Below, one piece after another: positions 8,057-47,264 of a stretch of DNA of 64,000 nucleotides. The stretch's first letter is position 1; every line of letters starts with the position of its first letter. Source of the stretch: a virus; the IMG/VR virus record IMGVR_UViG_3300048837_000549, positions 1 through 64,000 of that record; one strand, written 5' to 3'. The position numbers and the translations under genes are program-made. The notes beneath the pieces are model-generated. The model was not told the DNA's origin and did no database searches. It saw only the letters and a program-made list of their open reading frames with translations.

Positions 8057-8455
8057 TCAATTAAAAATTTCTTCTATTTCTTTTTTCTTTATCTTTTTAT
8101 TTGATATGATATATTCATCAAATTTTGTCTGCCATATTTCATACTTTCTATTCTTTTTAAATTTATCAATAATTTTATATATAATATCGTTTACTATTCT
8201 TCCCTCAGGTATTGATATATAGTTATTTTTATCTATAATGTATTCTATAAATATTACAGAATATCCTTTATTTTGATACTCTTTGAAAATATCAATATGT
8301 AATTGATTCCACCCCCTTTTTAATCTTAATTGTAATTTTCCTATCAACAAATTATTTTTAAAAAAACTATACGTTTTGAATTCACCCTCAAAAGATTCTT
8401 TAATATCAAAATCTCGTATAGTTTCTTCTTCAAATTTTCTAACATACTTTTTCAT
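8057..8455 (-). CDS. capsid-targeted protein, MKKYVRKFEEE tag, possible GNAT-like fold
   Basis: 132 residues. After the tag, residues ~50-110 read GKLQLRLKRGWNQLHIDIF-KEYQNKGYSVIFIEYII, which recalls the beta4-alpha3 region of GNAT acetyltransferases (a Q-x-x-G-Y/x-G acetyl-CoA loop); the second Gly is not conserved, so this is weak. The ATG overlaps the stop of the upstream tagged gene by 4 nt. Confidence 0.65.
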   Translation of the reverse strand: MKKYVRKFEEETIRDFDIKESFEGEFKTYSFFKNNLLIGKLQLRLKRGWNQLHIDIFKEYQNKGYSVIFIEYIIDKNNYISIPEGRIVNDIIYKIIDKFKKNRKYEIWQTKFDEYIISNKKIKKKEIEEIFN

Positions 8456-8874
8456 AGTTTACCTTCTATATAATCAATCAATTCTTGTGCATTTTCACTG
8501 GCATTTTTTAAATTTGTAGAATGAAGGGAAGCTTTAACATAGTTTCTATTTATTTTGTGCCATTCCCTATCTTCCCCTTCTGATGTATAGAAATCATATT
8601 CTTTATCACTCAATCTTTTATGACTATTACTTATATCCCAGAATTGCTTATTGAATTCAATAACCATATGTATATCCTGCCCCATGGTCCATGGTTGATA
8701 TTTTTGTTTGAAATGCTCTAAGGTTAGAATTAAAGCATAAGCGAATTCGTAACACCCACCAGACATATAAAAATCAATATCGTGTATTTGACTGAATTCA
8801 TCAATAGCATCAAATAAGTGATAATCTATTTCTTTTGTTGAATATGATTCATTAAATCTTTTATATCTTTTCAT
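8452..8874 (-). CDS. capsid-targeted protein with papain/transglutaminase-like Cys-His-Asp pattern
   Basis: 140 residues. The tag MKRYKRFNES is followed by SGGCYEFAYALILTL (Cys41), then DIHMVIEF (His69) and QFWDIS (Asp80). A GGC-x-x-F-A helix followed by H-x-V/I and a W/Y-D-I strand is the layout of small papain-like, NlpC or transglutaminase-type toxins and proteases. The catalytic assignment is inferred from order and spacing only. It overlaps the downstream tagged gene by 4 nt. Confidence 0.7.
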   Translation of the reverse strand: MKRYKRFNESYSTKEIDYHLFDAIDEFSQIHDIDFYMSGGCYEFAYALILTLEHFKQKYQPWTMGQDIHMVIEFNKQFWDISNSHKRLSDKEYDFYTSEGEDREWHKINRNYVKASLHSTNLKNASENAQELIDYIEGKL

Positions 8875-8876
8875 AA

Positions 8877-9617
8877 TTAACTTCCTATCTTTACAATATT
8901 TTTAGTCAAATCTCCCTTTATATATTCATAGATATACTTTAATAATCTCTCAAATACATTTGAATCTCCATAAAATTCTTTATATAGATCATAAACCCTA
9001 CATTCATATTGTTTAAAATTTTCTCTTTTATTTATAAATTTTAAAATTTCTACATCTTCTAAATCTTGATATCTTAATTCTTCTACAATTAAACAGGCAT
9101 AAGCCATAATCTCAGGTTTTAATGAGTAATAAGCTAAATCAGTTTTATTCTTTGAAAATTGTATCAAATCCTTCTTCACGTTATTTATAGTAAATGAGAT
9201 ATACTGTCCTCTATGAACTAATTCATGAGAAATAAGTTGTTTAAAATCTTTTAGAAATTCTCTTCTTACATCTTGACTTTTAAATAACGTATCTATAGAT
9301 AAACTACATAATACTCTAATTAAAAGGGATTTTTCACCAGATTCCATTGAATTTATCCCAGACTTATATCCATTATTATAATACTCTCCTTCTGGAATAA
9401 AAACAATATTATATTTTGAATAGTGATCTGTCAATAATTTACAAATTTGATAATCATATTTTAATTTAGAATTTTGATTACCTCCTATAATATCAACCAT
9501 AATATTGTATAATTCTTTTGCATAGTTATCAGGCCTAAATACTGCTTCATTTAGAAAATGACTTTTCTGACTACTACGAAAGATCTCATCCCCCTCATAC
9601 CTTATATATCTTTTCAT
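8877..9617 (-). CDS. capsid-targeted zinc metallopeptidase-like protein (HELVH paralogue 1)
   Basis: 246 residues with tag MKRYIRYEGDE. HELVH at 131-135 is followed 34 residues later by Glu169 in KPEIMAYA. Two other genes here (16682 and 17799) have the same HE[LI][IV]HR-x-Q plus K-x-EIMA-x-A pattern. HExxH with a downstream Glu is the zinc site of gluzincin peptidases. I infer an injected peptidase; the target is unknown. First gene of the minus unit, 26 bp from a minus-strand late-type motif. Confidence 0.75.
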   Translation of the reverse strand: MKRYIRYEGDEIFRSSQKSHFLNEAVFRPDNYAKELYNIMVDIIGGNQNSKLKYDYQICKLLTDHYSKYNIVFIPEGEYYNNGYKSGINSMESGEKSLLIRVLCSLSIDTLFKSQDVRREFLKDFKQLISHELVHRGQYISFTINNVKKDLIQFSKNKTDLAYYSLKPEIMAYACLIVEELRYQDLEDVEILKFINKRENFKQYECRVYDLYKEFYGDSNVFERLLKYIYEYIKGDLTKNIVKIGS

Positions 9618-9630
9618 TATTGCCTCGCCA

Positions 9631-9653
9631 TACTAATATATAAATTATTAGTA
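9631..9653. promoter_or_regulatory. divergent late-promoter pair
   Basis: The 62-bp gap between divergent genes holds TACTAATATA on the plus strand (9631-9640, 49 bp before the ATG at 9680) and TACTAATAAT on the minus strand (9644-9653, 27 bp before the start at 9617). Together they form an inverted repeat TACTAAT...ATTAGTA. Both strands therefore have a motif in the correct orientation. Confidence 0.65.
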
Positions 9654-9679
9654 AAAATCAAGGAGAATTGTAAATAATA

Positions 9680-10939
9680 ATGGCAAAACAAACAGAGCAG
9701 GAAATTAAACAGTCTATAATAAGTGATTTAACTATATGTAATGGTATTTATATAGAAAAATTTCCAGGAAGTAATTTGATAACTAGAGACTTTTATAGGG
9801 ACAATGGAAAATTTAAAGAGAAAGAAATAACAAAACACTTTGGATCTTTTGAGGCTCTAAAGAAAGAAGTGTTTAAAGAGGAAGTAGACACAATAGTTTT
9901 TAAAAAGAAGATTCATTCTCTAGAAACAGAAAATAGAAATTTATTAAAAGAAAATCAGGATCTAATTAAGAATAGTGTTATAGAGGATGTAATTCTTTCT
10001 AGATACGAAGAGAGATTAAATGCAGGTTTATTTATAGAGGGTAATCAATCAATTAAAATAGCTCCATATAAAATTTCAGTTAAAAATAAGGAAGCTATTC
10101 TAATGCTTTCAGATTTTCATTTGGGTGAGACAGTGGACTCGCTTGAAATACAAGGTATAAATAGTTATAATCACGAGATAATGGTAAAGAGACTAGATAG
10201 AATATTCTTCTACTTTGTACATTATTGTCTTAAATATGAAATAACAAAAGTTAATCTACTTCTGTTAGGAGATTTAATATCTGGTTCACATCATCCTGAG
10301 TTAATGAAAACTAATCAATGGTCAGATGTAGAATGTATATTCTATCTACAAGAATACTTAACAAATAAGATAGTCGAGATAGAAAAGAATTTTACAGAAA
10401 TAAAGATAGAAATTTTAGTAGGTAATCATAGTCGTATTCCAGAAGGAAAACCTGAATTTAAAAAAGCTGGAGTAATGAACTACGAATTTATCTTAGCAAA
10501 ACAAATGAAAATGTTTTTTGATCTTACTCAGAAAGATAATAAAGAGAAGAAAATAAAAGTAAATGTTAGTGAAAGTCTTTTCAATGTCATAGAAGTAGCA
10601 GGAAGAAGATTTCTTATAACTCATGGACATATACTAGCTGGGGGATCAAACAGCTTTGCTGGGATTCCCTACTACGGGCTCAGCATGCAATCTTCAAAAT
10701 TAGATGGTGCATTTAAACAGTTTGAACACTTACAATTCAATGATATATTGATGGGGCATTTACATTCTACTGCAAAAGTAAAAACCCCCATTGGAAACAT
10801 TTTCATAAATGGTTCGATCATCGGTACAGGTCAATTTGCTCTGTACAAAATGCGAGTTGTGGGGCAGGCAGAACAAACAATGTTAGTTATTGAAGATGGA
10901 AATGTAAATTCTGAAATTACGCTAAGGGGAGAAGACTAG
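9680..10939 (+). CDS. calcineurin-like metallophosphoesterase (Mre11/SbcD-type fold)
   Basis: 419 residues. The di-metal motif set is complete: D145-F-H147, G-D198, G-N249-H250, H315-G-H317 and G-H360-L-H362. Residues ~55-115 are a charged helical region (HSLETENRNLLKENQDLI). Mre11/SbcD and T4 gp47 use this fold as nucleases, whereas other phage members are of unknown substrate; with no gp46-like ATPase next door, nuclease activity is only a possibility. It starts the portal-containing rightward block. Confidence 0.85.
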   Translation: MAKQTEQEIKQSIISDLTICNGIYIEKFPGSNLITRDFYRDNGKFKEKEITKHFGSFEALKKEVFKEEVDTIVFKKKIHSLETENRNLLKENQDLIKNSVIEDVILSRYEERLNAGLFIEGNQSIKIAPYKISVKNKEAILMLSDFHLGETVDSLEIQGINSYNHEIMVKRLDRIFFYFVHYCLKYEITKVNLLLLGDLISGSHHPELMKTNQWSDVECIFYLQEYLTNKIVEIEKNFTEIKIEILVGNHSRIPEGKPEFKKAGVMNYEFILAKQMKMFFDLTQKDNKEKKIKVNVSESLFNVIEVAGRRFLITHGHILAGGSNSFAGIPYYGLSMQSSKLDGAFKQFEHLQFNDILMGHLHSTAKVKTPIGNIFINGSIIGTGQFALYKMRVVGQAEQTMLVIEDGNVNSEITLRGED

Positions 10940-10955
10940 TTTTAAAGTTATTCTT

Positions 10956-10965
10956 TACTAATAAT
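10956..10965 (+). promoter_or_regulatory. putative late promoter TACTAATAAT
   Basis: Perfect copy in context TTCTTTACTAATAATAAAATG, 42 bp before the portal ATG. Confidence 0.75.
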
Positions 10966-10997
10966 AAAATGATGTCTTAACTGAGTGGTAAAAATAA

Positions 10998-12983
10998 ATG
11001 ACAGATATAAGTAAAAATACATCCGTAGCAGATAGACTTAAAAAGTTTTTTGGATTCGGAATAAATGCAAATGCTACTGATGCAGTTGATAAGATAGAGA
11101 TATTCAAAACTGTAAAGGGTCTAGATAAATCTGGTAAACCAGCTGAGAGAATAGAGAAAGAAAAATTCTCAAATGATATTGAAGAACTTTGGAATTACTG
11201 GATTAATTCGTGTCATGACAACGCAGAAGATTCTTGGAAAACAATGTTGTCGGTCTACGATGACCAAGATTTACTTTTTTTTAACTGTAGCCCTATATCT
11301 AAATCATTAGAAATATTTGTTGGAGAGACACTTCAAGCTGATTCAAACAATCAAATGATTTTCATAGAAGCTAAACAAAAAATTAAAAAATATATCGAGG
11401 AATTTTTTGTAGACATAAATCTCAACGAACTTCTTAAACCTACTGTCACAGATATTATACAATACGGTAATGCAGGCTGGGTATTAGGTTTTGATAATAA
11501 AGGAGTTAGTAAAGTAAAAAGAATCCCCATTCGTTATTTGAAAGAGAGAATGGAATTCTCTCCTGTTGATTTACATGCAGCTATGGAGACACAAAATCAT
11601 AGAATACATGACTACAGAAGATCTATAAGTAGTGTAAATGATTTAATAGATATGATACAGAATGAGAGTGATGCATCATCTTACTTTGATGAATACTTAC
11701 TCGGTTTTGTTGTAGAAGATAAAGTATTACCTCCTTGGAAATTTTTACATTTTAGAAATATAACAAATAAAAGTCCTTTTGCTCCGTTTGGAATACCTAC
11801 TTTTATACATGCTATGGCTCCTTATAGACAATACGATGCAGCCATGGCTATGCAAATTATTGCGAGAGGTGCATCTTTTCCTAAGTCAATTTATAAATTA
11901 GATTTACCTAATGTTGTGAGTCCTACTGAAAAGTTTGCTAAGGCTACTGAATTTCTAAATGAAATGTTAAACTCAGGATTTGGAACATCTAAAAAAGAAT
12001 TACCAGGAGTTGGGGAAGTTATAATTACAATTAAAGACTTATTTGATTTTGAATTACAAGAAAGTAAAATAGAACTAGGGGCTACAGATGATTTAGAACT
12101 TCTTAAAGATGATATATACAATGCTTGTTTATTGCCTAGAAAACTTATAGATCCAAGTGATTCTGGATTTGGAGAAAGCGGAATATCATATGTTGAACAG
12201 TTTAAACCTTTTGCTAGAATGATATATAATTATCAATCAATACTTTTAAATAATATTACTCAATTAGTTAAAATACATTTATTACATACAGGAGATTTTG
12301 AATTAGAGGATATAGACTTCTCATTATCAATGCCATATCCAGAATCCCAGACAAATAATGATCTTATATCAGCTCAGAGTTCATTACTTGATTTAGCTAA
12401 TAATATTATAGGAGCTATTGAAGATAGGGTAACAGGGGGAGAGAAACTTCCACCTGAGTTAATTAAAACTATTTATAATAAATTTCTACCTTACGATTCA
12501 CAGGTTGTAGATTTTTGGGTAGATGAAGCTTTAAAAACTATGGATACAGGAGATTCGGACGAAGATTTCCCTGATGACTCTGATGATTCAAATGCTTTTG
12601 ACGATGATGGTAATCTTATAACTGATGAGCCGGAGATTGAGGAAGAAGGCCCTATGGCGTTAAAAGAAAGAAAACGTAAGTCTAAGAAAACATGGAGATT
12701 ACTTGAAAATAAAATAGGAAAAAGAAAACTAAAAGAAACAATTGATGATATTATATTTGAATGTTTTAGCGCCTCATCAATGAAAGAAGGATCAATACAA
12801 GGACGACACTTTTTTAAGAGTAAAAATAGATATAGTGATTTTAACCTAGATTCTTTTGTAGAAATTAGAAAGAAAGGTTTATCTAATAAACTTAAAGAAG
12901 CCGAAGAGACTATTAGAGATTCTGATAGATATGAAGAGTATAGAATGGAAATTTTTGATGAGAATGGTATAGAGGACAAATAA
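10998..12983 (+). CDS. portal protein (T4 gp20-like)
   Basis: 661 residues. The order of features is typical of large myovirus portals: an N-terminal FFGFG segment, an early helical region (FSNDIEELWNYWINSCHDNA), a central stem with DIIQYGNAGWVLGFD, KVKRIPIRYLKERMEF and PPWKFLHFRNIT, then APYRQYDAAMAMQII and RKLIDPSD, followed by an acidic stretch near 520-555 and a basic helical tail. It would form the dodecameric DNA-entry ring to which terminase docks. Driven by a perfect late motif. The extra C-terminal ~110 residues beyond the acidic stretch are unusual. Confidence 0.85.
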   Translation: MTDISKNTSVADRLKKFFGFGINANATDAVDKIEIFKTVKGLDKSGKPAERIEKEKFSNDIEELWNYWINSCHDNAEDSWKTMLSVYDDQDLLFFNCSPISKSLEIFVGETLQADSNNQMIFIEAKQKIKKYIEEFFVDINLNELLKPTVTDIIQYGNAGWVLGFDNKGVSKVKRIPIRYLKERMEFSPVDLHAAMETQNHRIHDYRRSISSVNDLIDMIQNESDASSYFDEYLLGFVVEDKVLPPWKFLHFRNITNKSPFAPFGIPTFIHAMAPYRQYDAAMAMQIIARGASFPKSIYKLDLPNVVSPTEKFAKATEFLNEMLNSGFGTSKKELPGVGEVIITIKDLFDFELQESKIELGATDDLELLKDDIYNACLLPRKLIDPSDSGFGESGISYVEQFKPFARMIYNYQSILLNNITQLVKIHLLHTGDFELEDIDFSLSMPYPESQTNNDLISAQSSLLDLANNIIGAIEDRVTGGEKLPPELIKTIYNKFLPYDSQVVDFWVDEALKTMDTGDSDEDFPDDSDDSNAFDDDGNLITDEPEIEEEGPMALKERKRKSKKTWRLLENKIGKRKLKETIDDIIFECFSASSMKEGSIQGRHFFKSKNRYSDFNLDSFVEIRKKGLSNKLKEAEETIRDSDRYEEYRMEIFDENGIEDK

Positions 12984-13034
12984 ATAGTTTTAAATTTGAC
13001 AACTTTTATTTATATTATAAATAGGTGATAGAGA

Positions 13035-13199
13035 ATGCTACTACAAAGATATCAACCATATAAATTTACAGAAGCTATTAATACCATAAAAGACTTTGAC
13101 AATATGGTTGAAGGCCTTCTTAAAGAGTCTTATGATGGTATGGTTAAAAACATATCTAATTACATCTATGCTATTATGAATCAATATGAAAAAAAATAG
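13035..13199 (+). CDS. tag-bearing short ORF, probably 5' part of a frame-split gene
   Basis: 54 residues, MLLQRYQPYKFTEA then a helical stretch ending in NQYEKK. The ribosome site GGTGATAGAGAATG is good. The frame ends at a TAG just after eight A's (13189-13196). Removing one A joins it in frame to the 317-residue ORF starting at 13186, which has no ribosome site of its own. I think the two form one tagged gene, split by slippage, decay or an assembly error. Confidence 0.6.
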   Translation: MLLQRYQPYKFTEAINTIKDFDNMVEGLLKESYDGMVKNISNYIYAIMNQYEKK

Positions 13200-14139
13200 A
13201 AAAGATGAAAAAGAGTCTGTTAGTATGTGGGCTAAACGATTTGACTATAAGGGCTATGCTATGGAGATAGCTCCCTCTTTTTATGAACAAGTGGGTAGAA
13301 TGTATCCAGTTGTTAAAATAGCAGATAGGGATATAAAATCTAAAACTTTAGCTTACGCTAAAAAATTTGCTAAAGAAGTTCAAGATTCTTATAAACAAAG
13401 ACTTCATGCTAAACTCTTTATTATACTTAAAGCAAAACCACTTAAGGATGTTAAACTAGTACGCTTAGATATAAGAGAATTTTATTCTGCAGTATTTCAT
13501 TTCTTTTTTGAAGATGGAAGTTCTTTTACTCTTCAAAGTCAGATAGTAACGAGCACTAGTATCTTAGGAAATGATTTTTATAGATTTCCCAACATATATC
13601 AGAACATTATTATGCAAGATGGAACAAAGATTAAGAAACAATCCGAAGAGTGGATGCTTGTTAATTTTGCAGGGAAAACAGCGAGTGACATTAAACAAGC
13701 TAAAAGAAGTCTTGACCCTGATGCCGATGCAAAGGATTTAAAGAAACTTAACTTTCAGAACAAAAGATATTACGGTATCATTACAACTACAGGACAGATA
13801 GAAGTAGGTAATAAATTTAAGATAGACTATCAGAGTCAGAATAGTGATCTTAAAAATATTAAAGATATTCATATAAACTTTAATATGCCTGAGATAGAAA
13901 CAAGACCTAATGGTTCTATGTGGGTAGATGATATCAGAGGTAAATCCGGTACAGCTACTATCGAATATAATGATGGTGTTAAAGTTCTTATAAATCTTTC
14001 AAGTGTAGCAAGACATGATGCTGTTAGATTTAAAAGGGTCGGGGGAGATTTAGTTTATGGTATAGAGACAAAAGCATTAAAGTATTCATCTAATAGTTAT
14101 TTCACTGGACTATCAGGAACAGTAGCAAAAATATTATAG
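13186..14139 (+). CDS. hypothetical protein, 317 aa (likely continuation of the tagged ORF)
   Basis: Overlaps the upstream ORF by 14 nt in the +1 frame. The ATG lies in ...CAATATGAAAAAAAATAG, with no Shine-Dalgarno. Content: YAMEIAPSFYEQVGRMYPVV, a Lys-rich helix, then beta-rich sequence (TTTGQIEVGNKFKIDYQ; GTATIEYNDGVKVLINLS). No family recognised. Next Met with a weak ribosome site is at 13225. If joined to 13035 it would be a ~370-residue packaged protein. Confidence 0.65.
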   Translation: MKKNRKDEKESVSMWAKRFDYKGYAMEIAPSFYEQVGRMYPVVKIADRDIKSKTLAYAKKFAKEVQDSYKQRLHAKLFIILKAKPLKDVKLVRLDIREFYSAVFHFFFEDGSSFTLQSQIVTSTSILGNDFYRFPNIYQNIIMQDGTKIKKQSEEWMLVNFAGKTASDIKQAKRSLDPDADAKDLKKLNFQNKRYYGIITTTGQIEVGNKFKIDYQSQNSDLKNIKDIHINFNMPEIETRPNGSMWVDDIRGKSGTATIEYNDGVKVLINLSSVARHDAVRFKRVGGDLVYGIETKALKYSSNSYFTGLSGTVAKIL

Positions 14140-14149
14140 GGGTAAACAA

Positions 14150-14284
14150 ATGGAACAGTTAATAGAAGTAAACGGGCAGAATGTAACAAAAGAACAATTT
14201 GAAGAAATGCAAAAAGATTCAAATATTAGACTTAAAGAAATAGCTCCAAGAGTTTATAAGGTACTAACTAAATTAGAAGGATAA
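14150..14284 (+). CDS. small hypothetical protein, 44 aa
   Basis: MEQLIEVNGQNVTKEQFEEM... ends KVLTKLEG. Preceded by GGGGTAAACAAATG. The pattern 'VNGQNVTKEQFEEM' resembles short winged-helix-like phage peptides that set an N-terminal hairpin before a helix. Tightly spaced between neighbours, which supports it as a gene. Confidence 0.6.
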   Translation: MEQLIEVNGQNVTKEQFEEMQKDSNIRLKEIAPRVYKVLTKLEG

Positions 14285-14286
14285 TT

Positions 14287-14382
14287 ATGTCTTACATTAT
14301 TCTTACTGGATCTGTGATTATTGTAATCACTTTTCTTAGTTTAGTTGGTACACATACCATAATTAAAATATTTTTTAAATAA
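14287..14382 (+). CDS. small membrane protein, 31 aa
   Basis: MSYIILTGSVIIVITFLSLV then GTHTIIKIFFK: one hydrophobic segment covering nearly the whole peptide with a basic C-terminal tip. Begins 2 nt after the preceding stop and is followed by AAGGAGACATAAATG of the next gene. Function unknown. Confidence 0.5.
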   Translation: MSYIILTGSVIIVITFLSLVGTHTIIKIFFK

Positions 14383-14392
14383 GGAGACATAA

Positions 14393-14755
14393 ATGAGTTC
14401 TTTTTCTGAAAAAGAAAAATCAAATTTTGATCAAATAGTAGCTTTAACCTCATTAACTCAAACTCAGGTAAGAGATGTATTATTTGCTATGCTTACTTGT
14501 GCCAGTCTTAATGCTCATTCTCAAGAGAACGAAATAACAATACCATATCTTTGTACTCTTAAATTTAATTATGAAGAAGTCACCAGTGATAAAGGTATAG
14601 AGTCTTCTATTAAGATAGAAGCAGAACCTTCAGTCACATTACTGAAAGAATATGTAGCTATTAAAAATGGAGAAGAACCTATTACTAAAAAATATTTTAA
14701 GAGACAAAATAAACTACATTTTAAAAATATGCTAAGTATCAATACGGATATGTAA
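14393..14755 (+). CDS. hypothetical protein, possible HU-like DNA-binding
   Basis: 120 residues. LTSLTQTQVRDVLFAMLTCA followed by EITIPYLCTLKFNYEE resembles the two N-terminal helices and following strand of HU/IHF-type proteins (helix-helix-'[IV]x[IL]P-x-[LF]Gx[FL]'). The rest (IKIEAEPSVTLLKEYVAIKNGEEP) could be the arm and end, but the DNA-binding Pro loop is not obvious. Fair possibility, not proven. Stop abuts the next ATG. Confidence 0.55.
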   Translation: MSSFSEKEKSNFDQIVALTSLTQTQVRDVLFAMLTCASLNAHSQENEITIPYLCTLKFNYEEVTSDKGIESSIKIEAEPSVTLLKEYVAIKNGEEPITKKYFKRQNKLHFKNMLSINTDM

Positions 14756-15145
14756 ATGGATTGGATTATACTATTTCAAAATCAATATAACAGAATAGTC
14801 TTTGTATCTTCTCAAAACCCAGATGAGAGAGATTCTATGTCTTATGAAAAATTTTTATCATTTATAAATAATGAATTTGTTATAAAAAACTTTATAGAGT
14901 TCTGTGATAAGGTAGATAGATTTAAAGTTATATATCTTACTAAAGATGGAACATGGGAAATAATGGAAGAAGATTTTACAGAAGCATCCTTCCAGGATTT
15001 ATATCATATAAATGGTAATAAAGAAGAAGACGAAGAAAAATCAATTACAGAATCAAAAGTAGATAAGTCTAAAGATTTATTAAATAAAATATTTGATTTT
15101 AGAAAAAAGGAGACAAAACATGGTATTAAACTTACAAATAGCTGA
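14756..15145 (+). CDS. hypothetical protein, 129 aa
   Basis: Begins directly after the TAA of the upstream gene. MDWIILFQNQYNRIVFVSS..., acidic in the last third, ending with KLTNS. The 3' end overlaps the start of the next gene by 26 nt. No family recognised. Confidence 0.65.
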   Translation: MDWIILFQNQYNRIVFVSSQNPDERDSMSYEKFLSFINNEFVIKNFIEFCDKVDRFKVIYLTKDGTWEIMEEDFTEASFQDLYHINGNKEEDEEKSITESKVDKSKDLLNKIFDFRKKETKHGIKLTNS

Positions 15146-15362
15146 CGATGAGGAGCATGTCTTTGAATTTGATAATTTTGAATTAGTTCTACATTCGAGT
15201 GGTAACTATATTCTCTCTGAAGAAGGTGTGTTTACTTTAGAAGGTTTACAATCTTTTCTAGAATTTAATTCTGAGTATGTTGTAGTGAACGAAAACGATA
15301 AACTCTTTATTTCTGCAGAAGATTTTAAAAAAGTAAAAGAGATTTATTTGAAATTTGCATAA
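15120..15362 (+). CDS. hypothetical acidic protein, 80 aa
   Basis: The start at 15120 is chosen because AAGGAGACAAAACATG gives a strong ribosome site; an upstream in-frame ATG at 15093 has none. The acidic product contains HVFEFDNFELVLHSSGNYIL and alternates strands and acidic turns. Unknown function. Confidence 0.65.
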   Translation: MVLNLQIADDEEHVFEFDNFELVLHSSGNYILSEEGVFTLEGLQSFLEFNSEYVVVNENDKLFISAEDFKKVKEIYLKFA

Positions 15363-15392
15363 TATTATTTATATTACAATTAAGGAGTTTTC

Positions 15393-15599
15393 ATGGAACT
15401 TGAAATGGAAGTTAAAACTATCAAAGTGTATTATACTTGTCCTAAATGTAAAATAGGTAATTTAGTATTAAGTAAAGTAAGCCCAGTCGCTAATCCTCCA
15501 GAGAATGAACATAGATGTAGTAATAAGGAATGTGATTATACTGAAGTCTTCGTAAGAACAATCTATCCATATATAAAGAAGGTGGAGATACCTTGTTAG
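15393..15599 (+). CDS. zinc-ribbon protein, 68 aa
   Basis: YTCPKCKIGNLVL ... EHRCSNKECDYTEVF gives C-x2-C and C-x4-C, a typical single zinc ribbon that could bind nucleic acid or another protein. Overlaps the primase start by 7 nt, so it may be co-translated with it and possibly work with it. Confidence 0.75.
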   Translation: MELEMEVKTIKVYYTCPKCKIGNLVLSKVSPVANPPENEHRCSNKECDYTEVFVRTIYPYIKKVEIPC

Positions 15600-16675
15600 G
15601 TAATTTTACAAAAAATATTTCCGTTATAGATGCCCTAAATCAACTAAACATAAAGCATGAGAATAGGCCAAATTCAAAAGGGTGGTTAAATATTATATGC
15701 CCTTTTCACAGGGATTCTAGTTTTGGAAATGCCAGTGTTAATGTTAATAGTGGGGTTATCTCTTGTTTTAAATGCGGAGCAAGTAAGAACATTTCTACTC
15801 TATTAAGAGATCATAATAGCGTATATGAATTTGTACCTACAGTTCCTATTGTACAAAGAAGAAAAGAGATAGTTAAGTCTAAAAATATAACTAATAAATT
15901 AAATTATAATTTTATTCATAAAGAAATAGATCCAGATGAATTCTACTATCTTAAACAAAGAGGACTTACCAAAGAATTCTGTGATGAATTTAAAATTGTA
16001 AGAAGTTTTACTGACCCATACTGTGACTATTTTGCGTACCCGATTGTAGATTCTAATAAGAAGATTTTCAACGTGGAGTTTAGAAAGCTAAAACAAATGG
16101 AATATTTACAAACATATTACGCATCTTATGATATGTCTTATTCTCAACTTTCAGATAAGTTTAAAGAACAATGTGAAAAAGAAAACATAAGAATATCTGA
16201 CTACAAACTTTATAAAGGTAATGAAATAATACAAGATAAGGTTCTTTTTTACTTATTAGATAAAAAGGTGAAATATGAATCGGGTAGTCGAATAAAGGAA
16301 ACACTTTTCAATATAGATAATCTTGACTTTAATAAAGACTTATATCTTGTAGAGGGTATAGGAAGTGTGGGTCGAATTTGGGCTAATATTTCTAAAAATT
16401 GTACTTGTACTTTCGGAAGCAAAATTTCTAAAGAACAATTAGAGTATCTTAAAAAATTTAAAAGAGTAATTTTAATACCGGACCGGGATTTGGCTGGTTT
16501 TCAAATGGTTAATAGTTTATATCAAGAATTAAAAAATCTAATTGTTATAGATACTATTTTTGAAGATACAGATACAGATTATGTTTTTGATTTACAAAAT
16601 ACTAATAATTATATGGAAGCAAATGAATACATTGCTAAGTATCTTTTAAAATACAATGTGAAGACTCTTTTCTAG
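15593..16675 (+). CDS. DnaG-type DNA primase
   Basis: 360 residues, close in length to T4 gp61 (about 340). A CHC2 zinc finger is visible (Cys36-x2-His39 ... Cys58-x2-Cys61) followed by a TOPRIM core: LYLVEGIG (Glu254) and LIPDRDLAG (Asp297, Asp299). It makes RNA primers for lagging-strand synthesis; no helicase domain is fused. Start is TTG after AAGGTGGAG, overlapping the zinc-ribbon gene. Confidence 0.9.
   Translation: MLGNFTKNISVIDALNQLNIKHENRPNSKGWLNIICPFHRDSSFGNASVNVNSGVISCFKCGASKNISTLLRDHNSVYEFVPTVPIVQRRKEIVKSKNITNKLNYNFIHKEIDPDEFYYLKQRGLTKEFCDEFKIVRSFTDPYCDYFAYPIVDSNKKIFNVEFRKLKQMEYLQTYYASYDMSYSQLSDKFKEQCEKENIRISDYKLYKGNEIIQDKVLFYLLDKKVKYESGSRIKETLFNIDNLDFNKDLYLVEGIGSVGRIWANISKNCTCTFGSKISKEQLEYLKKFKRVILIPDRDLAGFQMVNSLYQELKNLIVIDTIFEDTDTDYVFDLQNTNNYMEANEYIAKYLLKYNVKTLF
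16600..16609 (+). promoter_or_regulatory. possible late promoter inside primase 3' end
   Basis: TACTAATAAT occurs within the last codons of the primase gene, 82 bp before the tagged metallopeptidase gene at 16682. The spacing is longer than usual and the bases also encode Thr-Asn-Asn, so chance occurrence in AT-rich coding DNA is possible. Confidence 0.4.
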
Positions 16676-16681
16676 GTAATT

Positions 16682-17335
16682 ATGATAAGATATAAAAGTT
16701 ATTTTGAAGAAGCAGTAATTGATCCGGATAAGTATTTACAGAATAATATAGATCCATTGCTACCTTCAGTTCAAAAGATTATACACAATTCTAGAAATAC
16801 ATGGGCTATCTGTAAAAAACTAAATTTAATATTTAGAAAGTATAATATATCTTTTAAAAACTTAAATCAAATGTCCCCAAACGGTATTCTGTATGGAGCA
16901 GCCGAAAATAATAAAAAGAAATCAATTATAATTTTCTTATCCAATAATCTTATAAATACAAGAAATTCTACCGCATTTAAATATTTTTTTATAGAATTAA
17001 AATCTAAGATAAGCCACGAACTTATTCATAGATATCAATTTATAAGGATGGATAATTTGAAATTAAATCAAATGCCTACATACAAAAATGAAAAAGAATA
17101 TTTAGCTGATAAACAAGAAATAATGGCGAATGCTTTTAATTCTATAGAATATTTTCGTTTTATGGGGATAGAGGATAATCAACTTAAAGGGTTCTTAAAA
17201 AATAAAAATCCTTTATTAAAAAGTTGTGTATGGTATAAAAAATATTTAGAATTATTTACTAATGAGGATAAGGAGTTGAAATTATATTATAAGTATCTAT
17301 ATATGTATCTAGATAATCAGGCACAATCAATATGA
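16682..17335 (+). CDS. capsid-targeted zinc metallopeptidase-like protein (HELIH paralogue 2)
   Basis: 217 residues, tag MIRYKSYFEEA. HELIH at 112-116 followed by Arg-Tyr-Gln, then Glu146 in DKQEIMANA. Same pattern as the genes at 8877 and 17799. The N-terminal half also aligns loosely with them (LNLIFRKYNISF, like HYSKYNIVFIPEG). An injected gluzincin-like peptidase is inferred. Its stop overlaps the next ATG by 4 nt. Confidence 0.75.
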   Translation: MIRYKSYFEEAVIDPDKYLQNNIDPLLPSVQKIIHNSRNTWAICKKLNLIFRKYNISFKNLNQMSPNGILYGAAENNKKKSIIIFLSNNLINTRNSTAFKYFFIELKSKISHELIHRYQFIRMDNLKLNQMPTYKNEKEYLADKQEIMANAFNSIEYFRFMGIEDNQLKGFLKNKNPLLKSCVWYKKYLELFTNEDKELKLYYKYLYMYLDNQAQSI

Positions 17336-17787
17336 AATATAAATTACAAGAAGTTGAAACCTCAGAATTTTCATTTAATCCTCTCCACGACTATGGTTTA
17401 GATAAACCTTGGCAATCAGCTGGTCAAGTTCTTATGTCTGACTTAGGTTTGGAAAAATTTGGTAATAATGTTTTTATTCAGAAAGTACTCGGAGTTGGTC
17501 TTCCAATTTATGTTATCACCTACAACAGCAGATACCCTAGAGTCGGATTAACAGCGACAAGAGTTAAGAAATTAAAGTTTACTTGGATTGGAAAATCTAA
17601 AAGAAAAGGTATCCATACTTATATCAAACCCATGAAGTTAACTCCACCCTTATGTTTACAATCAGCTATGGTTACTATGACTTCGGGGAGTTTAGTTGTA
17701 CAAAGAGATATAGCCGGCGAGTACTTAAGGAATCCAAAAGTATTTGGTTACACTGATTACATATTAGATAAAAAGATAAACCAATAG
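17332..17787 (+). CDS. hypothetical protein, 151 aa
   Basis: Couples by ATGA overlap to the metallopeptidase gene. Begins MKYKLQEVETSE, a poor tag match. Contains NNVFIQKVLGVGLPIYVITY and KLKFTWIGKSKRKGIHTYI, beta-rich and basic. Lies between two metallopeptidase paralogues, so an inhibitor or partner role is conceivable but unsupported. Confidence 0.6.
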   Translation: MKYKLQEVETSEFSFNPLHDYGLDKPWQSAGQVLMSDLGLEKFGNNVFIQKVLGVGLPIYVITYNSRYPRVGLTATRVKKLKFTWIGKSKRKGIHTYIKPMKLTPPLCLQSAMVTMTSGSLVVQRDIAGEYLRNPKVFGYTDYILDKKINQ

Positions 17788-17798
17788 GCAGTAAAATA

Positions 17799-18512
17799 AT
17801 GATTAAGAGATATCAACAATTCTTTGATGTAGATAGTATAAGATTTCTTGGACCTACACACAACATGTTCGAAATGGTTCAACGCCCAGAAAATTATTAT
17901 ACTATTATTAAAGAAAAAATTGAAGTTTTTCGTAATAGAAATATATTTGAATCTTTAGATGATCTTATAATTTCTTTAAACTCTTATTTTATTGATGAAA
18001 AAATTATATTTATTTCATCTAAGACAAAAATGAAGTTCGATAGTGGTTTAACTTCGGCAGGATACAATCCAAAAACAAATGAACTTTATTTATTTTATAA
18101 TTCGGATATTAGTAATGCTTTTAAAATGGAAAATAAGGAGCAGGACATCTATGATTATAAATGGTTTTTAGAGGATTTAGAAGGATTTATAGGACATGAA
18201 ATTATACATAGAATGCAATACTTTAAAGACAAAATTAAAGATGTAGGAGTAATGTCGAAAGAAAATAGAAAAAAGTATTTAGCAAAACCCAAAGAAATTA
18301 TGGCTTATGCTTGGCAAATAGTTCAAACTTTTAAATTAAACGGTAAAGATGATGATTTTATAAAGTTTGTTTTAGGATCGAAAAGAGATTTAGAGAATGT
18401 TAAAATAATAAATTTTATTCCTATGTTAGCTGAATACTATAACACTTTTGATAAGGATTCCAATACTATGAAGTTATTATATAAGTATATCTATCAATAT
18501 GTAGATAAGTAG
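17799..18512 (+). CDS. capsid-targeted zinc metallopeptidase-like protein (HEIIH paralogue 3)
   Basis: 237 residues, tag variant MIKRYQQFFDVDS. HEIIH at 133-137 then Arg-Met-Gln, and Glu166 in KPKEIMAYA. It shares with the paralogue at 8877 the MAYA tail and the length of the C-terminal helical part (LLKYIYQYVDK versus LLKYIYEYIKG). Acts as the third member of an apparent family expansion; peptidase function inferred. Confidence 0.75.
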   Translation: MIKRYQQFFDVDSIRFLGPTHNMFEMVQRPENYYTIIKEKIEVFRNRNIFESLDDLIISLNSYFIDEKIIFISSKTKMKFDSGLTSAGYNPKTNELYLFYNSDISNAFKMENKEQDIYDYKWFLEDLEGFIGHEIIHRMQYFKDKIKDVGVMSKENRKKYLAKPKEIMAYAWQIVQTFKLNGKDDDFIKFVLGSKRDLENVKIINFIPMLAEYYNTFDKDSNTMKLLYKYIYQYVDK

Positions 18513-19090: not shown

Positions 19091-19321
19091 GTGAAAAGAT
19101 ACAAAGAATTTTTTAGAGAAGATTGTACATTAGAAGAACAAGAAGAAGGTACTTGCGCGCTTCCTGAAGAATGTCCAACTCCTCAACAGAATGGTCCTAG
19201 TGGTTATTGTAAGAGAATTAATGATGGAGCTAAACTATTAGGTAAATGTCAAGATGGTTATATTTGGGATGACAAAACAAATAAATGTATTATAGCTCCT
19301 AAAAAATCAAATGCCAAGTAA
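19091..19321 (+). CDS. capsid-targeted cysteine-rich peptide, 76 aa
   Basis: GTG start after TAATATT. Tag MKRYKEFFRED is followed by a body with six Cys (about 12, 22, 28, 40, 53, 67) and sequence like EGTCALPEECPTPQQNGPSGYC ... GYIWDDKTNKC, reminiscent of small EGF- or chitin-binding-like disulfide knots. Six evenly spread Cys could form three disulfides, unusual for a cytosolic phage protein. Overlaps the next frame by 11 nt. Confidence 0.65.
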   Translation: MKRYKEFFREDCTLEEQEEGTCALPEECPTPQQNGPSGYCKRINDGAKLLGKCQDGYIWDDKTNKCIIAPKKSNAK

Positions 19322-20207
19322 ATCAGAACAACAACGAAAATATATCTATTACCTTAGAAGTCAAGACGAGGACAAATCTAAGTGGTTCTGGGATAAAGAT
19401 TGGGAACAAATAGAGGAAACTAAAATGGAGAGATATACACCTTATTTCGAAGATATAATTATACCTCTCTCGAAGGGAGATACTTTCCTCTACGGGAAAT
19501 TTAAAAATAAACAGGCTATATATGCAAGTCATTACTTTAATGATAAGGGAGATCTGATTATAGTAACTGATCAGAAAAAAGAAATTCCGGCTTGTAAGAT
19601 AAGATTAGTACAAGAGCAATTAGAAGAGAATCTTCGTCTAAGTGACTTAAAAAAACACGCAGGTATAAGTAATTTTACCAAACCTTTTATGAAAGATAGA
19701 CAAAGAATAAAAGGTACTGGAGCAAGATCAGCTAAGATAAAATCGATTAAAGTTAATAGAAAGAAAGACTATATAACATTCACTTTTACAAGTGAACCTA
19801 CATATACAAAAACAGCTTTTGCAGTTAAATTTCCAGATGTTGAAGATAAGAAAAAAGTAAGATTATATACTCAAGAAATCCGTATTCTTGACTTCTTTAA
19901 GTGGGCGGAAACAAAACCGGGATATATTGAAAAAGAAATGACGCCGAAAGAAATTAAAGAAATATTAAATGTGGCAGATGTTAAACTAGCTTGTAACTGT
20001 TTTTCATTTCAGTTCCAGGGGTTTAATCATATACTTACAACTTTCGATGCTGCAATATATCCAGAATTAAGACCACCTAAGAAATGGAATAAATACCACA
20101 ATGATGATAGCTTCACCTGTAAGCATCTGGATCTACTCATTTCGTCTGGACTTAATATTTATATAAACAACATGACTATGATGGTTAACAAGTACATAAA
20201 GAAATGA
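19311..20207 (+). CDS. SWIM-type CxC...CxH protein; tag at an internal start (19425)
   Basis: The frame opens at 19311 (MPSKSEQQRKYIYYLRSQ, a sequence style seen at the start of several phage small proteins). An in-frame ATG at 19425 begins MERYTPYFED, matching the shared tag; upstream GAGGAAACTAAAATG is a fair ribosome site. The body has ACNCFSF (C-x-C), RPPKKWNKY and TCKHL (C-x-H), the SWIM zinc-finger pattern. Paralogous to the product at 7387. Whether the first 38 residues are a separate fused peptide or just the upstream end of the frame cannot be decided. Confidence 0.65.
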   Translation: MPSKSEQQRKYIYYLRSQDEDKSKWFWDKDWEQIEETKMERYTPYFEDIIIPLSKGDTFLYGKFKNKQAIYASHYFNDKGDLIIVTDQKKEIPACKIRLVQEQLEENLRLSDLKKHAGISNFTKPFMKDRQRIKGTGARSAKIKSIKVNRKKDYITFTFTSEPTYTKTAFAVKFPDVEDKKKVRLYTQEIRILDFFKWAETKPGYIEKEMTPKEIKEILNVADVKLACNCFSFQFQGFNHILTTFDAAIYPELRPPKKWNKYHNDDSFTCKHLDLLISSGLNIYINNMTMMVNKYIKK

Positions 20208-23883: not shown

Positions 23884-23893
23884 GGAGATTGCT

Positions 23894-24154
23894 ATGAAAC
23901 AATCAGATTCAATTAAAATATTTGATAAGTTAAATAAAGTAATTAATGGCTCGAAAAGTATAGTAGAAAACATCAATAATAGTTCTTCAATAAATCATGA
24001 GAAAGCTATTAAAGCTTCTATGCTCAATTCTATTCTTATTGCCGAAGCTTTGAAAGATATACTGAGAGATATAGTTGTTTTGGATAAAAATCCAAACTCT
24101 AAAATGGATTTACCTGAGGGATTTGAGGAATTATTCGGGGGATTTAGAAAATGA
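23894..24154 (+). CDS. hypothetical protein, 86 aa
   Basis: Helical product (SIVENINNSSSINHEKAIKA ... LPEGFEELFGGFRK). Lies within the glycan island, overlapping the next start by 4 nt. AAGGAGATTGCTATG gives a strong ribosome site. Function unknown. Confidence 0.6.
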   Translation: MKQSDSIKIFDKLNKVINGSKSIVENINNSSSINHEKAIKASMLNSILIAEALKDILRDIVVLDKNPNSKMDLPEGFEELFGGFRK

Positions 24155-24882: not shown

Positions 24883-24884
24883 AT

Positions 24885-43544: not shown

Positions 43545-45527
43545 ATGAATAAAAAGATTTCATTAGAAGAAAGAGCAAAACAAAAAGGAAAGACACTTCT
43601 TATTGAAAGTATTTCTTATTTGCCTAATATAGAAGATGTTAAAGTAGAAACTAAACTTATTGAAGCTATAACTGGTAAGCAACATGAATGTAGAGGTGTT
43701 CTTAAAAATGTTCCTGTTACTAGATTTACCGAGAATGCTAATGGAAGAATTTATCCTAAAGAGTTATGGGCTGAAGTAGAAAAAAGAAAAACTTTTGAGG
43801 GAGCGGATTGTCTAGCAGATCACGCTGCTGAGGGAGATGGTAGCGTTCTTGATACGGTGGGTATTTGGAAAAACTTCAAAGTCGGTGAAGATATCGCCAC
43901 CGCTGATTTATATTGTATAGGTGCTGCTGGAAATCTTTTGTTAGAGAAAGCCAGAGCCGGTGGAAAAGTTGGTTTCTCAACTGTAGCTTTCGGTACATTG
44001 AGTGAATCCGATAACAAAACTGTTATGACAGAAGATTTCGAGTTTGAAAATTGCGACTGGGTCCGCAAGCCAAGTCAGAATGTATTTGCTACACAAGAAA
44101 ATCTAGAAGAATCTATTAAAGAAAGTGTAGAAATAAAAAAAGAAAATAAAATTATAGAAAATAATTTTACTAATAATTATAAAGAAGAAAAAACGGTAGA
44201 GGTAAAACAGATGGATAAATTTTCAGAATCAACATTTAAAAATCTTATACGTGCTACCATTAAGGAAGCGAATGCTAATGAAAACTACGTTGAGGCTATA
44301 GAAGAGCTTAAAGAAGTTTCTAAGACAATTCCTTCTGAAATGGTTGAACAAATTGCACAAGTAGACACAGCAATTACACAGATTCAAAGTAAACTACATG
44401 AGCAAAAAGAACAAGCACAAAAAGAGCTAAAGGAATCAAAAGAAACTCTTGAAAGCATGACTAAAAAGTATGAAGCCTCATGTAATACTATAAAAGTTTT
44501 AAAAGAGAATCTAGAAAAAGCTTCAAAAATTGTTGAAAAAGTAAATGATAAAGATACTGTAAAAACAATTAAACTTATGTCAGAAGACCTTGATCAATTT
44601 GAATCTGATAGAAAGCTAATGGAATCAGACATTAAAAAATTTATTGAATCTATTGAAGCTCTTAAAGAAGATGTTAAGCTTATGTCTGAAGATATTAAAT
44701 GTTTTGAAGAAGACACAATACTTAGAGATAAAGATATTGCAAGGTTCAAAGAAGAACGAGGTAAAATGAAAAATAAAAATAGTAAACTCTCAAAACAACT
44801 TAAAGTAGCAGAACGCCATATTAAAAGACTTGAGAAAACCTTGAAAGAAGAATTTGATTATGAATTTGATGATGAAATTGTAGATGACGAGTTTGTAGAT
44901 GACACTATGATTATAGATGATGAGTTTGTAGACGAATCTGATATTGATGATGTATTTGCGGATGAAGATGACTTCTACATGGAATCAGAAGATGAAGACG
45001 AAGAAGATGAAATGGAAGAAGATTCCGATGACGCTGATGAAATTTCAGATGGTGCTCTTGAAGAATCTGACGATGAAGATGAAGACGAAGAAGATGAAGA
45101 CGAATTAGAAGAGTCTGATGACGATGATGAAGACGAAGAAGATGAAGAACTTGAAGAAGAAGAAGACGACGAAGAAGAGTCTGACGACGACAAAATGGCT
45201 GCTGTAAGAGATGCTAAAAAAGAAGCTCTTAGACGTAAGAAAAGACTTCAGGTTAAAAAATTAGAAGCTAAAAAAGCATCTAAGAAAAAATCAGTTAAAG
45301 AGTCTAAAGCACCAGTAAAGGAAGTTGTTGAATATTACAAAGCAATTTCTAAAACTAAACCAGCTATTAGAGATATTAAAGAAGCAGTTCTTAAATCAAG
45401 ATCACTTCTAGAAGCTGTTAAGAAAGTATCTATGTTTGAGCATAAGTTTGGTAATGATGTTCACAAACTAAAAGAATCAGCTCAGAGTAATAAACAAGAG
45501 TTTACAAAATATAAGTTCACTGTTTAA
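43545..45527 (+). CDS. prohead protease (T4 gp21/S77-like) fused to scaffold
   Basis: 660 residues. Residues ~45-185 are the protease: GVLKNVPVTRFTENANGRIY, then DHAAEG (His93) and VGFSTVAFG (Ser145), the catalytic pair placed as in T4 gp21. Residues ~223-425 are a long coiled-coil (EELKEVSKTIPSEMVEQIAQ; many K/E heptads), ~425-550 are a nearly pure Asp/Glu tract and the end is basic. It would assemble the head core, then cut scaffold, capsid and tagged cargo after Glu. T4 encodes protease and scaffold separately; here they share one ORF, with an apparent internal start at 44211. Confidence 0.85.
   Translation: MNKKISLEERAKQKGKTLLIESISYLPNIEDVKVETKLIEAITGKQHECRGVLKNVPVTRFTENANGRIYPKELWAEVEKRKTFEGADCLADHAAEGDGSVLDTVGIWKNFKVGEDIATADLYCIGAAGNLLLEKARAGGKVGFSTVAFGTLSESDNKTVMTEDFEFENCDWVRKPSQNVFATQENLEESIKESVEIKKENKIIENNFTNNYKEEKTVEVKQMDKFSESTFKNLIRATIKEANANENYVEAIEELKEVSKTIPSEMVEQIAQVDTAITQIQSKLHEQKEQAQKELKESKETLESMTKKYEASCNTIKVLKENLEKASKIVEKVNDKDTVKTIKLMSEDLDQFESDRKLMESDIKKFIESIEALKEDVKLMSEDIKCFEEDTILRDKDIARFKEERGKMKNKNSKLSKQLKVAERHIKRLEKTLKEEFDYEFDDEIVDDEFVDDTMIIDDEFVDESDIDDVFADEDDFYMESEDEDEEDEMEEDSDDADEISDGALEESDDEDEDEEDEDELEESDDDDEDEEDEELEEEEDDEEESDDDKMAAVRDAKKEALRRKKRLQVKKLEAKKASKKKSVKESKAPVKEVVEYYKAISKTKPAIRDIKEAVLKSRSLLEAVKKVSMFEHKFGNDVHKLKESAQSNKQEFTKYKFTV
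44168..44177 (+). promoter_or_regulatory. late promoter motif inside the protease ORF
   Basis: ATTTTACTAATAATTATAAAG is a perfect TACTAATAAT 43 bp before an in-frame ATG at 44211, the same spacing as at dedicated promoters. It encodes Thr-Asn-Asn in the linker between protease and scaffold, a part that is free to vary. Confidence 0.6.
44211..45527 (+). CDS. nested scaffold protein (inferred internal start)
   Basis: In-frame internal ATG of the protease-scaffold gene, with AGAGGTAAAACAGATG as ribosome site and its own late motif upstream. Gives MDKFSESTFKNLIRATIKEA..., a 438-residue coiled-coil and acidic scaffold without the protease. This mirrors lambda C/Nu3, where a capsid protease gene contains a nested scaffold start. 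Expression is inferred; scaffold function follows from composition. Confidence 0.55.
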   Translation: MDKFSESTFKNLIRATIKEANANENYVEAIEELKEVSKTIPSEMVEQIAQVDTAITQIQSKLHEQKEQAQKELKESKETLESMTKKYEASCNTIKVLKENLEKASKIVEKVNDKDTVKTIKLMSEDLDQFESDRKLMESDIKKFIESIEALKEDVKLMSEDIKCFEEDTILRDKDIARFKEERGKMKNKNSKLSKQLKVAERHIKRLEKTLKEEFDYEFDDEIVDDEFVDDTMIIDDEFVDESDIDDVFADEDDFYMESEDEDEEDEMEEDSDDADEISDGALEESDDEDEDEEDEDELEESDDDDEDEEDEELEEEEDDEEESDDDKMAAVRDAKKEALRRKKRLQVKKLEAKKASKKKSVKESKAPVKEVVEYYKAISKTKPAIRDIKEAVLKSRSLLEAVKKVSMFEHKFGNDVHKLKESAQSNKQEFTKYKFTV

Positions 45528-45815: not shown

Positions 45816-47264
45816 ATGAAACACGGAAGACAAAAAATGAGCGAGTCTCAAATGAAAGAGATAGTTCAACAAGAATGGGCATCTAAATCTAGAATCGGAG
45901 AAGCATGTGTAGCAAAATGGTCTAAGATGGATTTAGTTGGAAAAGAAATGCTTGAAAAATACGCTGAGAATCCTGCTAAGATTCGTAAAGCAGCTATTAT
46001 GCTTGAAAATCAAGAAAAAGTTCTAAAACAGATTATGAAAGAGAATCTTTATTCTACTACTTTTGGAACATCTGTAAAACCTGAGCATATGCTTAAAGCA
46101 ATATTCCTTGGAGCTGCTAACTCAAAGAGGGGAGATATATTCACAGAATATCCACTTACTTCTACTGATGACGCATTATTCTACATTCAATCAGTTTATG
46201 AGAGCACTGTTCGTGGAGCAACTGCAGGAGCTAGATCTTATGAGAGCATGTCTCCTTACTACTCTGGAGAACAATATTTTGGCTCAGTAGGAACAGGTAA
46301 CGGAGCACTTACAGCATTCGTTTCTGCGCCTATGGCTTATCTACCACTTATTCCTTTTAAGACTGTAATCACTTTAGGTGGAGCTCAAATAGCTGTTGAT
46401 AATGGTTCTGGAGTTCTTGTAGGTTCACTTCTTAATCCAGCACTTACTAACACAGTTAACTATGCTACAGGTGTTATTACTCTTAATTTTCTTGTAGCAC
46501 CTGCTAATTTAGCTCCTATTACTTGTGTATACAATTGGAACTCAGAAGATGCAACTAACTATACCAATTATGGTACTATGAGCCTTGAACTTGTGAAAGC
46601 TAGATTCAACGCACGTCCTATGCCTCTTGGATATAGAATTTCAGATATGACTCAGATTATGTTTGAGACAACTGGTCTTGGAGATGCTAAAGACTATATG
46701 GCACAAGCAGTTGGTCAAGAACATGCAAGAGCAAAAGATTATAGAGCGATTGCACAAGCAAGACGTGTAGCACTTGGAAACGCAGTAGCAACATTTGATA
46801 CAGACTTCGCAGCAGCTGGTGAAATCAGTTATAAGTCACACGCTCAAAGAGTACTTACAGAGATTGAAAGAGTTGGAGCAGTTATATATGACGATCTAAA
46901 GAGAGGTGGTATTACTGATATCGTTGCAGGAGCAAAAGCAACCGCATATCTTAAAAATCATGATCTTTGGAAAGACGTTTCAGGAGATGCTAAGAATGGA
47001 GTTTATCAAGCTGGTACACTTTCAGACATGAAAGTATTTACTTGTCCAGCAGATGCAGCTCTTGTAGCAACTAACGAAATGCTTCTTGTATATAAGAACC
47101 CACAAGAGTCCATGGATGTAAGTATATTATTCGGAACTCTTGCAGAAATCGACGCTAGTTTAAGATATCCAAATTTTGTAACTGAGGGAAATTCCTGTGT
47201 AATTGAGGACAGCCGTGTCGTGAACGGAAAATTCATTCGGTTAATGCAACTACAGTCTCTTTAA
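45816..47264 (+). CDS. major capsid protein (T4 gp23-like, HK97 fold)
   Basis: 482 residues, close to T4 gp23 (521). N-terminal ~70 residues are a helical, charged delta-like region (MKEIVQQEWASKSRIGEACV) then LLTSTDDAL-type core: YPLTSTDDALFYIQSVYEST, FGSVGTGNGALTAFVSAP, and LELVKARFNARPMPLGYRIS. A Glu near residues 71-74 (LKQIMKEN) is a plausible prohead-protease site. It forms the icosahedral shell. Long leader and tandem promoters suggest the strongest late transcription. Confidence 0.85.
   Translation: MKHGRQKMSESQMKEIVQQEWASKSRIGEACVAKWSKMDLVGKEMLEKYAENPAKIRKAAIMLENQEKVLKQIMKENLYSTTFGTSVKPEHMLKAIFLGAANSKRGDIFTEYPLTSTDDALFYIQSVYESTVRGATAGARSYESMSPYYSGEQYFGSVGTGNGALTAFVSAPMAYLPLIPFKTVITLGGAQIAVDNGSGVLVGSLLNPALTNTVNYATGVITLNFLVAPANLAPITCVYNWNSEDATNYTNYGTMSLELVKARFNARPMPLGYRISDMTQIMFETTGLGDAKDYMAQAVGQEHARAKDYRAIAQARRVALGNAVATFDTDFAAAGEISYKSHAQRVLTEIERVGAVIYDDLKRGGITDIVAGAKATAYLKNHDLWKDVSGDAKNGVYQAGTLSDMKVFTCPADAALVATNEMLLVYKNPQESMDVSILFGTLAEIDASLRYPNFVTEGNSCVIEDSRVVNGKFIRLMQLQSL

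Follow-up and report, generated by a model that had tools for sequence, protein, structure and literature searches.

What are three small, mutually related proteins with a putative zinc-peptidase site doing among the structural genes of a phage, each of them introduced by a short leader that recurs on many neighbouring genes? The locus lies in a window of 64,000 nucleotides (positions 1 to 64,000 of virus record IMGVR_UViG_3300048837_000549). Its principal features are collected in Table 1, and further window genes are designated by w and their first position.

Table 1. Position of the three peptidase-like genes, their motifs and associated genes in the window
Feature	Position	Strand	Basis
Paralogue A, metallopeptidase-like, 246 aa	8877..9617	-	family profile, E 1.2e-58
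A, N-terminal tag MKRYIRYEGD	9588..9617	-	sequence and tag statistics
A, HELVH, residues 131-135, putative zinc ligands and general base	9213..9227	-	invariant in family alignment
A, EIMA, residues 169-172, putative third ligand Glu	9102..9113	-	Glu invariant in family alignment
Paralogue B, metallopeptidase-like, 217 aa	16682..17335	+	family profile, E 2.9e-56
B, N-terminal tag MIRYKSYFEE, then AVIDP	16682..16711	+	sequence and AF2 model
B, HELIH, residues 112-116, inside predicted helix 96-123	17015..17029	+	
B, EIMA, residues 146-149, start of predicted helix 144-160	17117..17128	+	
Conserved untagged gene between B and C, 151 aa	17332..17787	+	
Paralogue C, metallopeptidase-like, 237 aa	17799..18512	+	family profile, E 3.8e-56
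C, N-terminal tag MIKRYQQFFD	17799..17828	+	sequence; disordered in model
C, HEIIH, residues 133-137, inside predicted helix 117-144	18195..18209	+	
C, EIMA, residues 166-169, start of predicted helix 164-180	18294..18305	+	
Head maturation (prohead) protease, acidic C-terminal region	43545..45527	+	PHROG 207, E 3.6e-11
Major head protein, after protease	45816..47264	+	PHROG 138, E 4e-4; PHROG 1014, E 3e-17

Three related peptidase-like genes

The initial annotation had pointed to open reading frames at 8877, 16682 and 17799, and all three are present there and intact. It had also described HE[LI][IV]H followed by R-x-Q, with a glutamate 29-34 residues downstream; we find HELVHRGQ in A, HELIHRYQ in B and HEIIHRMQ in C (HExxHRxQ), and the EIMA glutamate follows the second His at a distance of 34, 30 and 29 residues, respectively. 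The K-x-EIMA context given for that glutamate is that of A (LKPEIMA) and B (DKQEIMA), while C reads KPKEIMA. The three products can be aligned with one another over most of their length and, since pairwise blastp comparison gives E values of 2e-14, 2e-16 and 5e-16, they are paralogues; their mutual identity in our alignments is 24-34%.

The 3' end of paralogue B overlaps the next gene, w17332, by 4 nt. In phage G003 a homologue of this gene is fused in frame to a peptidase (L165:8935-10047), the product matching those of w17332 (40%, E 2e-23) and w17799 (E 4e-21). An origin of the three genes by frameshift or as pseudogenes was ruled out, the reading frames being intact and dN/dS lying at 0.15-0.33 in ortholog pairs between the window and phage G001: about 0.15 for A, whose ortholog is 78% identical (dN 0.13, dS 0.87), and about 0.33 for C. 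Judged by these ratios the peptidases are under purifying selection.

A putative peptidase family of huge phages

Scans of the three proteins against Pfam and PHROGs gave no significant match and placed them in no family, and over 39 members only weak matches were seen, for example to Tox-MPTase4 (0.024) and PHROG 10499 (4e-5). Nor did the family profile match the sequences of solved structures significantly. A back-translated pattern, with HExxHxxQ and E-I/V-M-A separated by a variable gap, picked out 84 stretches in viral contigs, and open reading frames at the gathered loci yielded 54 distinct proteins with the motif in frame, a few of them duplicates or chance occurrences. With the pattern scan and the profile searches together, about 50 viral contigs were seen to carry relatives. 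When 39 of the motif-bearing proteins are aligned, M1, H, E, H, Q, E and M do not vary; at least 90% conserved are a Glu near the N-terminus that precedes A-V-I, the EIMA Ala and a Tyr which stands six positions ahead of the second Glu. The spacing from HExxH to the downstream Glu is 28-37 residues across the family. Chance does not account for the HExxH/Gln/Glu pattern, since none of the 39 homologues aligned from other viral contigs departs from it. That the proteins have kept only the zincin-like fold and serve, without catalysis, as scaffolds or inhibitors is very improbable, for while the motif residues could be structural, the two His, the Glu between them and the downstream Glu are present in 39 of 39 sequences, recur in the additional paralogues L137, L138 and L139, and persist where whole-protein identity falls to 16-30%.

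By profile search there are three copies in the present phage, three in G001, two each in G002, G004 and G005, and one in most others. Records that carry members include contigs of 430-476 kb and one uncultured phage genome of 642 kb. Salicola phage SCTP-2 is the only cultured phage in which a candidate member, gp47, was found (profile E 4e-21). In Virus Rctr197k the domain lies within a 2175-aa ORF adjoining the terminase gene (profile E 5e-16). No member was found with the profile in T4, RaK2, PAU, Atu_ph07, XacN1, Bacillus G, phiKZ or SPN3US, and tblastn against cultured phages gave three weak matches for C (E 0.05-0.3), matches at E 9-10 only for A and none for B. To judge from these searches the family is not peculiar to the present phage and is broadly spread in huge phages. 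Our literature search found no paper on the peptidase family or on such tags in huge phages.

Among 31 bacterial genome contigs, L093 encodes the same protein as viral locus L050 and L099 a phage-type relative, so that these two are probably phage contigs inside bacterial bins. The other contigs of the 31 were rejected as a source of cellular relatives, since they form a separate small family, HFHELVHxxQW...LEVMAY (L094-L122), of Verrucomicrobia, planctomycetes and gammaproteobacteria. Of three of its proteins compared with Pfam, L119 and L109 gave only a weak Tox-MPTase4 match and L106 gave none. This bacterial family (alignment A4) shares HExxHxxQ and E-V-M-A with the phage peptidases (hhalign E 5e-8 over 49 columns, a likeness of the motif region which is partly built in because the family was found by the motif pattern); it lacks the tag and is otherwise different.

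Predicted fold and putative zinc site

HExxH followed by a downstream Glu constitutes the zinc site of gluzincins. AlphaFold, run with the family alignment, produced models for C (pLDDT 85.2, pTM 0.81) and B (pLDDT 88.4, pTM 0.85) in which the order of elements is the same: helix, helix, three strands, a long helix bearing HExxH, and a helix that starts at the Glu, as in gluzincins (Table 1). The sole extended stretch with pLDDT below 50 is the tag, residues 1-24 in C and 1-8 in B. Both models follow the zincin order described for phage metallopeptidases (PMC5512222).

Foldseek comparison of the two models with the PDB returned no match at E<=0.001. Zincins are among the nonsignificant matches (E 0.2-3.4), the best of which include CapP for model B and M1 aminopeptidases for model C. 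Relatives were found only among predicted viral proteins, the best (E 2e-5) having 433 aa, a length equal to that of SCTP-2 gp47. The initial annotation had read the proteins as zinc peptidases and had proposed a comparison of predicted folds with gluzincins. The invariant ligands, the confident zincin-like order of both models and the weak zincin-type fold matches support this reading well, though no solved gluzincin matched significantly. We take the models to represent a divergent gluzincin-type (zincin-like) domain, a candidate for clan MA(E), with putative zinc ligands in HExxH and EIMA.

The likeness to Peptidase_M78 (ImmA/IrrE/CapP) lies in the small gluzincin fold and in a Glu within an E-x-x-A helix, and the nonsignificant fold matches of the window models include CapP and IrrE-like viral proteins. 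Unlike that family, the window peptidases have no fused DNA-binding domain, and its Pfam model (PF06114) found no match at E<=1 in the present phage (G000), while control genomes did match.

The N-terminal tag

The tag has the consensus M-K-R-Y-x-x-F/Y, often followed by Glu; that of paralogue C is shifted by one residue. Its presence on all three products, remarked on in the initial annotation, is real: a loose form of the rule fits 24 of the 87 non-overlapping ORFs of the window, compared with 1.35% at internal positions. In the aligned set of tagged ORFs Tyr stands at position 4, F/Y is commonest at position 7 and Glu is common at 9-10. A strict rule for positions 4 and 7 fits 17 of the 39 family members (8.6% at internal positions), and some of the misses are due to the choice of start codon, with alternative starts upstream, and to a variant one residue longer, MKRYKRKF.

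In T4, the ten residues at the N-terminus of IPIII are enough for entry into the head; within this leader, targeting depends on residues 4 and 7 and processing on residues 8 and 10, and it is the prohead protease that removes the propeptides of T4 (PMC9026906). The leader in the window is likewise of about ten residues with key positions 4 and 7. Most family members have the near-invariant Glu before A-V-I, and the window also encodes a head maturation protease, which we propose as the enzyme that removes the tag. The terminase is nearest to those of phages such as Pseudomonas phage QdP_Psa3 (26% identity), and by this sequence the phage is not a close relative of T4; the comparison with T4 is consequently one of analogy, and for the loading mechanism only.

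Leaders were also looked for in 20-kb regions from ten other phages. Several of these have a recurrent leader of their own, such as MKHLKTYKIFES in G017, MKNIKTFKQLFEN in G012 and MKRIKSFKLFES in G020, and the peptidase of such a phage usually begins with the same type of leader as its phage. In SCTP-2, gp47 (MKVKQITEA) is flanked by genes starting MKVKHITQYLFES and MKVTHITQYLFES, and in the 20-kb stretch of G003 a Tyr-4 leader, nearly always MKRYK, stands on 17 of 36 ORFs. These matching leaders are the strongest independent support for a head-loading signal. Within G003, L165 10566-19640 holds some 17 small ORFs, nearly all beginning with MKRYK and a hydrophobic residue and often having Glu at position 10, which makes it an unusually dense block of candidate packaged cargo.

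The leader might instead be some other localisation or regulatory signal, the peptidases being expressed from the phage genome and acting in the infected cell. We regard this as quite unlikely: it would suit the absence of a clear tag from some homologues and the distance from T4 by terminase, but the tag positions agree with the T4 rule (PMC9026906), and the rule, unmatched in the helicase, ligase, primase-like protein, PARP, terminase, portal and major head protein of the window, does fit cargo-like small genes among the structural genes. The tag, which unrelated huge phages also place on this enzyme, and the head maturation protease of the window favour the initial description of the products as packaged, the role of the tag being inferred by analogy.

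Gene positions and sub-lineages

Gene-by-gene comparison of related phages placed peptidase copies in seven or more different slots within a structural gene cluster that is otherwise conserved, with other tagged small genes in neighbouring slots. In the window, paralogue A is flanked by w8452 and w9680; its flanking genes are the orthologues of w3887 and w5218 in G001 and those of w3493 and w3887 in G005. Lineage C follows w17332 in the window; in G001 it precedes w6449, in G005 a tagged gene and w6449, and in G004 it adjoins w7387. Further copies, in G002 and G007, are situated between w58169 and w58652. In the tree the copies fall into separate sub-lineages common to several phages, and copies from the same phage are not each other's closest relatives; even the two lineage-A copies of G001, which share one clade, are not sisters. 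By the tree the sub-lineages are separate and ancient, and the sequence pattern is that of exchangeable accessory effectors under purifying selection, not of a fixed maturation enzyme.

This bears on whether packaged enzymes might work inside the head, as accessory maturation proteases acting on tagged proteins or on the scaffold before DNA packaging. Processing by zincin-like metallopeptidases has been suggested for packaged polyvalent proteins (PMC5512222) and for virion proteins of some jumbo phages (PMC7824862), and the Rctr197k domain sits beside a terminase gene. From a maturation enzyme one would expect a single, stable gene, however; here the copy number varies from 1 to 3, the sub-lineages differ between related phages and the peptidase genes shift position among structural genes that are themselves conserved; moreover, the phage already encodes a head maturation protease. 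We therefore consider an in-head role unlikely.

Proposed function and comparison with known systems

We think it fairly probable that the proteins form an undescribed zincin-like (gluzincin-type) family which is loaded into the capsid by its tag and injected to cut host proteins. In the manner of the capsid targeting sequence on T4 internal proteins, the tag would place the enzyme in the scaffold core during head assembly, after which the head maturation protease would cleave the tag off next to Glu. The Zn ligands would be both His of HExxH and the EIMA Glu. Ejected with the DNA, the enzyme would cleave host proteins early in infection, and different sub-lineages in one phage would have different targets, for example defence or regulatory proteins. 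The suggestion that several copies serve different targets was made at the outset; it fits the tree and the shifting gene positions.

The kind of thing proposed is known in outline, from polyvalent zincin domains, the SprT-like proposal and an injected internal protein of T4. Like T4 IPI-III and Alt, the window proteins combine a short N-terminal tag, in which residues 4 and 7 are conserved, with variable cargo; a prohead protease encoded by the phage and variable gene slots are further common features. The internal proteins of T4 are tagged and injected, and serve as counter-defence or takeover factors (PMC3012670, PMC9026906); internal protein I, once injected, inhibits a restriction enzyme (PMC3012670). 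Among the T4 cargo are a nuclease inhibitor and an ADP-ribosyltransferase, while the T4 list of PMC9026906 contains no metallopeptidase and T4 itself has no match to the peptidase family.

Packaged polyvalent proteins contain zincin domains (PMC5512222), and MPTase-PolyVal (phage N4 virion RNA polymerase, P1 DdrB) is likewise phage-carried with a zincin-type HExxH and Glu, is delivered with the DNA, and has been proposed to process itself or to target the host. It forms domains of large multidomain proteins, whereas the window peptidases are stand-alone and tagged, of 217-246 aa in a family of 210-250 aa; the distant Rctr197k member is the only one of multidomain size, and its 2175-aa ORF may link the family to MPTase-PolyVal. 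The corresponding Pfam model (PF18818) had no match in G000, SCTP-2, LR756502 or Rctr197k. For jumbo phages, PMC7824862, in the part used here, proposes that SprT-like and ArdC-like metallopeptidases, patchily distributed and with the SprT-like ones in 1-3 copies, act against different host proteins; copy number, patchiness and proposed variety of targets are shared with the present family, while tag or packaging is no part of the proposal as given there. The SprT Pfam model gave no match to the three window proteins even at E 5. What sets the present proteins apart is that they form a stand-alone family, unmatched by PF06114 and PF18818 in the genomes compared, widespread among huge phages and tied to a capsid-type tag.

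Other genes of the window

Gene 37434-41171 (+) specifies a 1245-aa protein with a tag-like N-terminus, MKYNESFF. Its residues 972-1215 match PHROG 18612 (unknown function, E 6e-43) and a C-terminal stretch resembles ADP-ribosyltransferase by eye; it is a possible analogue of T4 Alt. The untagged product of 52607-53794 (-) is a PARP (Pfam PARP, E 1e-21) with matches to WGR and regulatory domains. Tags also occur within the ORFs at 41803-42594 (+) and 19311-20207 (+) (MKRYEPKFKVKEAD; MERYTPYFED), and because the latter corresponds to two separate ORFs in G003 (L165 13214-13885, tagged, and 13887-14387), its sequence suggests fused cargo genes. Two tagged 174-aa proteins, from 51093-51617 (-) and 54699-55223 (-), have a common D-T-x-H-S-x-x-R motif and no Pfam match, and perhaps represent another paralogous cargo family. 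The tagged gene 8452-8874 (-), which adjoins paralogue A, has a weak Phage_YunG-like Pfam match (E 5e-5). Beside the tagged cluster, 20361-25550 (+) is a run of genes which by eye are likely to be glycosyltransferase or sugar-related.

Significance

The earliest phage proteins in the cell are packaged effectors, which makes them the first counter-defence as well; to our knowledge few are known outside T4 and the N4/P1-type phages. Dozens of other giant phages have the labelled enzyme, so that it is probably a weapon in wide use, one that travels inside the virus particle and enters the bacterium when infection begins. More tentatively, many uncultured huge phages may carry this unnamed injected-protease family as standard head cargo, each with a few sub-lineages in rotation; a general system based on tags might then package dozens of effectors into every virion, each peptidase cutting a different host defence or regulatory protein. 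If the proposal is true, one tag and one zincin-like fold would allow injected proteases to be read directly from metagenomic huge-phage genomes, and the other tagged genes, about one quarter of the ORFs here, would be a ready list of candidate injected proteins.
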